A stretch of 35,260 bases of DNA from Nitrososphaerota archaeon (GTDB lineage Archaea; Thermoproteota; Nitrososphaeria; Nitrososphaerales; Gagatemarchaeaceae): assembly GCA_029785375.1 (NCBI GenBank), contig JAFLZV010000007.1, forward strand, positions 1 to 35,260, in the 5' to 3' direction. The translations under genes and the position numbers were made by a program. The notes beneath the pieces were generated by a model. It was given only the letters and a program-made list of their open reading frames with translations, had not been told where the DNA came from and did not search any database. Below, one piece after another: positions 18,026 through 35,260 of this stretch. Numbering within the stretch: the first letter of the stretch is position 1; each line of letters begins with the position of its first letter.

Positions 18026-18033
18026 CTTTTAAC
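18026..18033 (+). promoter_or_regulatory. TATA-like promoter of tRNA-Ala
   Basis: CTTTTAAC is centred 30 nt upstream of the tRNA 5' end. Core sequence and distance are the same as upstream of tRNA-Gly at 1226-1235. Confidence 0.6.
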
Positions 18034-18087
18034 TGCAGGTTCCCAGGCAGGGCCCAAGAGGGCCGGTCGTCTAGTCTGGTAGGATAC

Positions 18088-18103
18088 AGCGGAGCGCGTC
18101 CAG
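18088..18103 (+). other. tRNA-Ala intron 1, 16 nt at position 27/28 (non-canonical BHB)
   Basis: A complete bulge-helix-bulge. GGAT (18082-85) pairs with GTCC (18098-101); each strand is followed by a 3-nt bulge (ACA and AGT), and the intron is closed by GCG/CGC around GAG. Cutting after the second bulge base removes 16 nt and creates the anticodon stem CTCCC. Position 27/28 is non-canonical. Confidence 0.87.
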
Positions 18104-18113
18104 TCCCTTGGCA

Positions 18114-18126
18114 AAGAAATCCAGAC
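18114..18126 (+). other. tRNA-Ala intron 2, 13 nt at canonical position 37/38
   Basis: TTGG (18108-111) pairs with CCAG (18121-124), with bulges CAA and ACT, flanked by the exon helix CTCCC/GGGAG. That helix exists only after intron 1 has been removed, so intron 1 is probably cut first. A competing stem (CCAGTC with GACTGG) joins sequences of both introns in the unspliced form. Confidence 0.85.
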
Positions 18127-18166
18127 TGGGAGAGGTCGGGGGTCCAAATCCCCCCCGGTCCACCTT

Positions 18167-33913: not shown

Positions 33914-34057
33914 CCGATTCTACGTTGGGAAGTCACTTTCGCCACCTCCATCCTTGCCAGGCCGTGAAACACCGCAAACTTATTGGATGGGGGCTGTCGG
34001 TTTCGAATTCCTTCTTGGGTTCAGGCGCTTTCATGCCCCATGAGGTAGGTTGACCGA

Positions 34058-35260
34058 TTGTCAGGTCAGAACGGTTTCCAGTTGCTTTCACCTCCCCTTG
34101 TCGCGGCCCTGAAGGAGAGGGGGTTCGACTCCCCCACTGAGCCCCAGGAGAAACTGCTCCCAATAGTGCGCGAGGGGAAGAATGCGCTCCTGATGGCCCC
34201 TACGGGGACAGGGAAGACCGAGGCTGCGATCCTTCCCATACTGGACGCCCTGGTGAGGGAAGGAGAACCGAGAGAGAAAGGGACGAAGCTCCTGTACATC
34301 ACCCCCCTGCGGGCCCTCAACAGGGACATGCTTGACAGGATGCAGTGGTGGTGCAAGCGCTTCGACATCAGGCTCGGGGTCAGGCATGGGGACAGCTCCC
34401 AGGCTGAGAGGACCAATCTGAGCTTCGCTCCGCCGGACATCCTCATCACTACCCCTGAGACGCTGCAAATCCTGCTGGTCGGCAGGAGGATAAGACAGAA
34501 CCTGGCGAAGCTGAGGTGGGTCGTGGTGGACGAGGCCCACGAGCTGTCGGAAGACAAGCGAGGGAGCCAGCTCAGCGTGGGGCTCGAAAGGCTCCGGGAC
34601 GTGGCGGAGAAGGAGTTCCAGGTGGTCGGCCTGTCCGCGACGGTCGGGTCCCCTGAGAAGGTGGCACAGTTCTTGGTGGGGAGCGGGAGAAAGTGCGAGG
34701 TGGTGCGAGTCCCGGTGGAGAAGAGCCTCTCCCTGAGGGTAGACGCCCCGAGAGCGACCGGGGACGACAAGATACTCGCGGACTCGATCTACTCCTATCC
34801 GGAGGTCGCTGCGAGGCTCAGGACGGTGAGGGAGCTTGTTGAGAAGTACAGGTCGGTGCTAGTCTTCACCAACACGAGGTCGGAGGCAGAGGCCTTGTCG
34901 AGCCGCTTCAGGGTATGGGACCCCAGCTTCCCCATCGCGGTGCACCACAGCTCCCTTTCGAAGGCGACTCGGGAGGCGGTCGAGAAGGGCCTCAAGGAAG
35001 GCAAACTGCTCGGCGTGATCTGCACGAGCAGCCTCGAGCTCGGCATAGACATCGGGTTCCTAGAATACGTGGTGCAGTACAACTCCCCCAGGCAGGTCAC
35101 GAGGCTGATCCAGCGGGTAGGGAGGAGCGGACACAGAATCGGGCAGGTCTCCAACGGTCTCGTCATCACCCAGGACTCGGACGACACTCTCGAAGCGGCG
35201 GTCCTTTGCCGCAAGTCTGTCATGGGAGAGCTTGAGCCCCTTGCACCGGTCTTCAGCCCC
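34058..35260 (+). CDS. Lhr-type DEAD/DEAH helicase (5' part; runs off window end)
   Basis: 401 codons with no stop before the window edge. It is a superfamily-2 helicase of the archaeal Lhr/Hel308-like group, with motif I MAPTGTGKTEA (46-56), Ia TPLRALNRDM, motif II VVDEAHE (Asp158-His161), motif III GLSATVGS, then in the second RecA domain FTNTRSEAE, HHSSLS, CTSSLELGIDIG and motif VI QRVGRSGHR. Lhr proteins remodel replication forks and R-loops and act in DNA repair. The start is TTG at 34058, with GAGGT 12 nt upstream; the frame is closed by TAG at 34046, so no earlier start is possible. The N-terminal part is short, so the first RecA domain begins almost at once. Confidence 0.9.
   Translation, partial: MSGQNGFQLLSPPLVAALKERGFDSPTEPQEKLLPIVREGKNALLMAPTGTGKTEAAILPILDALVREGEPREKGTKLLYITPLRALNRDMLDRMQWWCKRFDIRLGVRHGDSSQAERTNLSFAPPDILITTPETLQILLVGRRIRQNLAKLRWVVVDEAHELSEDKRGSQLSVGLERLRDVAEKEFQVVGLSATVGSPEKVAQFLVGSGRKCEVVRVPVEKSLSLRVDAPRATGDDKILADSIYSYPEVAARLRTVRELVEKYRSVLVFTNTRSEAEALSSRFRVWDPSFPIAVHHSSLSKATREAVEKGLKEGKLLGVICTSSLELGIDIGFLEYVVQYNSPRQVTRLIQRVGRSGHRIGQVSNGLVITQDSDDTLEAAVLCRKSVMGELEPLAPVFSP

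Follow-up and report, generated by a model that had tools for sequence, protein, structure and literature searches.

A short segment of the window (the whole 35,260-nt stretch of Nitrososphaerota DNA analysed here) raises the question of whether a tRNA-Ala(GGC) gene that standard programs pass over is a working gene interrupted by two very small introns and, if so, whether these introns have to leave the precursor in a fixed order. Taken as a whole, the explanation that the locus is a genuine, functional tRNA-Ala(GGC) gene whose two tiny introns would be removed by cleavage and ligation in the cell has, in our estimate, a probability of about 0.94.

Identification of the gene

The tRNA-Ala(GGC) gene at 18060-18162 was not detected by ARAGORN, and the Rfam tRNA model also missed it, with a low threshold yielding only chance matches at the locus. 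In an exhaustive splice search all BHB-like removals were tried and the remaining RNA was scored as a tRNA; the top-ranked answer is exactly the removal of introns at 27/28 and 37/38 (Table 1). The observed score of 37.8 compares with 32.6 for the best null, and none of 120 interior shuffles was as good. The splice search, the shuffles and the relatives described below thus show that the original prediction was exact in the identity of the gene, its coordinates and the positions of both introns. Alanine identity features are present, namely the anticodon GGC and the G3:U70 pair, which is invariant in 12 aligned orthologues. A TTTTAA element lies upstream of both tRNA genes in the window, in each case exactly 27 nt before the first base, and is likely to represent a shared TATA-type promoter.

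In nearly all tRNAs position 55 is a U (pseudouridine), but the T-loop here reads TCCAAAT, with C55 instead (window 18144). C55 recurs in several related genes for tRNA-Ala(GGC), and a few other tRNAs of G016, a complete genome from the same genus, share it.

Table 1. Features of the tRNA-Ala(GGC) locus; exons and introns are given in their order in the window sequence
Feature	Position in window	Strand	Description	Sequence
TATA-like element	18027-18032	+	upstream of tRNA-Ala(GGC)	TTTTAA
tRNA-Ala(GGC) gene	18060-18162	+	two introns; mature RNA 74 nt; no encoded CCA	
Exon 1	18060-18087	+	tRNA positions 1-27; bears G3 of G3:U70	GGGCCGGTCGTCTAGTCTGGTAGGATAC
Intron 1	18088-18103	+	16 nt, position 27/28	AGCGGAGCGCGTCCAG
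Exon 2	18104-18113	+	tRNA positions 28-37; anticodon GGC at 34-36	TCCCTTGGCA
Intron 2	18114-18126	+	13 nt, canonical position 37/38	AAGAAATCCAGAC
Exon 3	18127-18162	+	tRNA positions 38-73	TGGGAGAGGTCGGGGGTCCAAATCCCCCCCGGTCCA
BHB 1	18082-18101	+	central helix 18082-18085 with 18098-18101; bulges ACA and AGT	GGAT/GTCC
BHB 2	18104-18131	+	exon helix TCCC/GGGA; central helix 18108-18111 with 18121-18124; bulges CAA and ACT	TTGG/CCAG
Competing helix	18073-18127	+	prediction only; D-loop 18073-18079 with 18121-18127 (end of intron 2 and T38)	

Intron number and phylogenetic distribution among orthologues

When related genomes were screened with the interrupted gene, 141 of 151 matched at E <= 0.1, although many of these matches cover no more than the acceptor end and T-arm of other tRNAs; parsing them left 43 distinct tRNA-Ala(GGC) genes. 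The orthologues carry zero, one, two or three introns, at sites 27/28, 37/38 and 59/60, and in most relatives the introns measure 13-18 nt. Both introns of the window gene are present in most members of the genus and in several other genera of the family. Other genes have the 37/38 intron only (L218/L038, L222 and L254/L094), introns at 37/38 and 59/60 (L220) or all three (L085, L087/L036, L216/L060 and L217), and uninterrupted genes occur both within the family (L251/L043) and among the sampled orthologues of several further families in the order (L229-L237, L239). One of the three-intron genes is identical between Candidatus Gagatemarchaeum stordalenia (L060) and a genome of the window's family (L216 in G041); the genus Candidatus Gagatemarchaeum is classified in Candidatus Gagatemarchaeaceae, Nitrososphaerota. 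The window thus belongs to a Nitrososphaeria MAG of this family.

The spliced 74-mer aligns with the naturally uninterrupted orthologues without a gap over all 74 columns. In the cloverleaf of the aligned genes 100% of the cells are paired, and double-sided changes number 30, compared with an average of 7.4 in shuffles. Among these changes, pair 27:43 shifts from C-G to G-C and pair 28:42 from T-A to C-G across relatives, and since positions 27, 28 and 42-43 are spread over three exons, the paired exon bases covary across both introns.

Plotted on a ribosomal protein L3 tree, which represents a single gene and has some weak forks, the two-intron genes fall on both deep branches of the family, genes that carry the 37/38 intron alone, or no intron at all, lie nearer the base, and the 59/60 intron appears in two separate clades. 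This placement of the two-intron genes indicates that the two-intron state is probably old in the family, with later loss. The third intron was probably gained or lost more than once, as far as this single-gene tree can tell; its similar sequence in the separate clades also suggests repeated gain or loss.

The extra T-loop intron at 59/60 is 29 nt long in all the genes listed above that carry it, with, for example, a TTCG/CGGA helix and bulges AAT and TAT. In a different family of the order, L227 and L228 have a 30-nt insert at 27/28 of tRNA-Ala(GGC) in which the GGAT/GTCC motif is absent, apparently an independent intron at or near this site. The tRNA-Ala(GGC) genes L225 and L226 combine a longer D-loop intron with a short one at 37/38.

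BHB motifs and the proposed processing

Both motifs could be confirmed as originally drawn, with GGAT/GTCC pairs for the 27/28 intron and TTGG/CCAG pairs for the 37/38 intron. The 27/28 intron has the BHB layout of a 4-bp central helix flanked by two 3-nt bulges, in which the predicted cut sites lie; it has a 3-bp inner helix (GCG/CGC) and no exon-side helix. The 37/38 intron would be cut one nucleotide 3' of the anticodon, and its intron-side helix consists of no more than one pair.

In the 25 distinct relatives that carry the 27/28 intron, the central helix of BHB 1 is complete without exception and the first inner pair is always G-C, while the second inner pair is kept in 24 of 25 by five different pair types. 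At least two inner pairs form in 24 of the 25, compared with a mean of 4.7 and a maximum of 11 in 2000 rounds of shuffling. Retention of the inner helix by varying pairs, far above the shuffles, is strong evidence that the 27/28 intron is under selection as an RNA structure. For intron 2, the TTGG/CCRR pairing is kept in nearly all genes, with a single mismatch in L216, L217 and L221; the upstream intron of L221, as derived by hand from its sequence, is best read as shifted to 25/26.

We propose that the precursor carries two minimal introns and that a heteromeric (alpha2beta2-type) splicing endonuclease would cut both motifs, the relaxed one at 27/28 that lacks an exon-side helix and the one at 37/38 that almost lacks an intron-side helix, after which RtcB would join the exons into a normal 74-nt tRNA. 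Cleavage and ligation in the cell, like the subunit arrangement of the enzyme, we infer from the sequence, the motifs, the comparison with empty sites, the covariation and the enzymes of congeners.

Splicing enzymes in congeners

Because the window's own MAG, which is 61% complete, gave no match for endA or RtcB, these enzymes are seen in congeners only. An endonuclease-family match is present in all 13 genomes of the genus with a completeness of 90% or more and a contamination of 5% or less, and most of them have two endA paralogues. In G016, the nearest match of paralogue one is Aeropyrum pernix chain 3p1z_B (E 1.5e-42). This paralogue retains the active-site Tyr/His/Lys triad, whose His is replaced by Ala in PDB chain 3ajv_B, as well as the Lys aligned with A. 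pernix residue 44, for which we refer to a 2011 paper cited in PMC3218864. Paralogue two lacks the catalytic His. RtcB was found in both complete congeners. Such a pair, one member catalytic and the other without the His, would fit an alpha2beta2-type assembly, and in gene content the suggested check of the endonuclease came out as predicted in the complete congeners.

Alternative readings and the order of splicing

Failure of both standard finders to recover the gene and the presence of C55 in its T-loop might point to a decaying pseudogene or an assembly error, in which case the two segments would not be introns at all. We regard this as extremely improbable, since the same arrangement recurs, with helix-preserving changes, in independently assembled genomes of several genera, and since the complete genome G016 yielded no further GGC gene; the gene is probably single-copy. 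If the locus is a functional gene with two introns, these could still be removed in an obligatory order, intron 1 leaving before BHB 2 can form while a stem between the two introns blocks the latter, as had been supposed at the outset. It is true that pair 27:43 closes only once intron 1 is gone, and passages of the tRNAscan-SE 2.0 paper describe other close-set introns of which one has to leave before the second BHB forms (PMC8450103). However, four of the five pairs of the BHB 2 exon helix (TCCC/GGGA) lie wholly within exons 2 and 3 and are available in the unspliced RNA, as is the entire central helix of BHB 2. The two BHBs can also be drawn simultaneously, and one constrained fold of the precursor contains both. 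The supposedly strong intron-intron stem (CCAGTC/GACTGG) can be drawn, but its pair probability is 0.007, and constrained folding rules it out as the main competitor; removal of intron 1 in silico leaves the probability of BHB 2 at 0.00, the same as before. An obligatory order of this kind is unlikely, and the original prediction does not hold in confining the exon helix to the RNA that has lost intron 1 or in the stem that it named, and the ordered pathway that it drew from them is not supported.

The strongest competing stem is instead a helix between the D-loop (AGTCTGG) and CCAGAC of intron 2 plus T38 of the exon, with a predicted probability of 0.99. Folding at 37-65 C favours this helix over BHB 2, which it excludes, while it is compatible with BHB 1; the folding takes no account of tertiary contacts and also fails to predict the mature D-stem, so the energies are not to be trusted for the order of splicing. 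The pairing would allow intron 2 to act as an internal chaperone that holds the D-stem open and frees GGAT for BHB 1, so that intron 1 would tend to leave while intron 2 is still in place. In 21 of 26 relatives that have an intron at 27/28 or immediately beside it, 7/7 positions at the end of intron 2 are complementary to the D-loop, including a double change in L086 (AGTTTGG/CCAAACT), whereas the four genes without intron 1 (L218, L220, L222 and L254) lack full pairing; folding likewise predicts the helix in most two-intron relatives and in none of these four. Several genes have a higher predicted BHB 1 probability when intron 2 is present (0.63 versus 0.00 in L072, 0.93 versus 0.07 in L084). 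Against this, much of the match to the D-loop comes free, because CCAG is needed anyway to pair with TTGG of the anticodon loop and the same AGTCTGG is found in intron-less orthologues. Intron 1 also occurs without the pairing (in L091, L092, L093, L216, L217 and L219), and most of the sequences are closely related, leaving few independent cases. Since the D-loop is shared with intron-less genes and some two-intron genes do without the pairing, we treat the chaperone role as a conjecture and a rather improbable one; if it were true, the evolution of two introns in one tRNA would be coupled, and the order in which they leave would be built in.

Relation to known multi-intron tRNAs

The expectation that multi-intron tRNAs occur mainly in Thermoproteales and a few related lineages is out of date, for they are also documented in Caldiarchaeum, where two-intron tRNAs have been published (PMC3293823), and in Thaumarchaeota. 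Passages of the tRNAscan-SE 2.0 paper report tRNA genes with multiple non-canonical introns in some Crenarchaeota and Thaumarchaeota, and BHBs whose formation has to await the departure of another intron have likewise been described before (PMC8450103). Those thaumarchaeal genes resemble the present one in phylum, in having multiple non-canonical BHB introns per gene and in requiring iterative removal to be found, but the passages name neither Gagatemarchaeaceae nor a 27/28 intron of tRNA-Ala(GGC). A partial search of the literature returned no paper on tRNA introns in Gagatemarchaeaceae.

Thermoproteales such as Pyrobaculum and Thermofilum, with up to three introns, likewise have several short BHB introns per tRNA at canonical and non-canonical positions; their endonuclease is heteromeric, as the one here is proposed to be. 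They belong to a different phylum and to hot springs, whereas many of the relatives here come from acidic soils and similar sites and the introns described here are very short. In Caldiarchaeum subterraneum, tRNA-Thr(GGU) has one or two introns (PMC3293823), so that intron number varies at one locus between close relatives, as it does here; its introns, however, are at 24/25 and 45/46 with a gene fragment nearby, while we saw no fragment here, and the state with two introns probably goes far back in the family.

The family adds a well-documented, intron-dense archaeal group outside Thermoproteales. With zero, one, two and three introns at a single tRNA locus, and intron-less orthologues for comparison, intron gain and loss become traceable. 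Because genes of this kind escape both ARAGORN and the Rfam tRNA model, these genomes can seem short of essential tRNAs.

Other tRNA genes

A twice-interrupted tRNA is typical of this genome and no exception. Two introns also give the best parse for Asn(GTT), Thr(CGT), Arg(TCT), Lys(TTT), Phe(GAA) and Glu(TTC) in the MAG that contains the window. A T-arm-based census of G016, which misses genes with T-arm introns, gave 29 tRNAs with acceptable scores (8 without an intron, 14 with one and 7 with two); manual inspection covered part of its splice sites, and the parses include at least one in which the introns went unplaced and a few that seem incorrect. An intron at 27/28 was assigned to Ala(GGC) only.

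The window's other tRNA gene, tRNA-Gly(GCC) at 1102-1200 on the minus strand, is detected by Rfam and missed by ARAGORN. It has a 24-nt intron at 53/54 (1145-1122) with a central helix CTCG/CGAG, bulges GGA and AGT and a 6-bp inner helix (AGTCAT/ATGACT). A third candidate at 34019-34143 was rejected, as it has a poor splice-search score, has no Rfam tRNA match and, as read from the sequence, is situated where a helicase-like reading frame starts. On the smaller contig C2 of G016, at about 150.9-151.6 kb (L210-L212), uninterrupted tRNA genes (Ser, Leu and others) are clustered, in contrast to the intron-rich chromosome; this cluster may belong to a mobile element, a plasmid or a virus.
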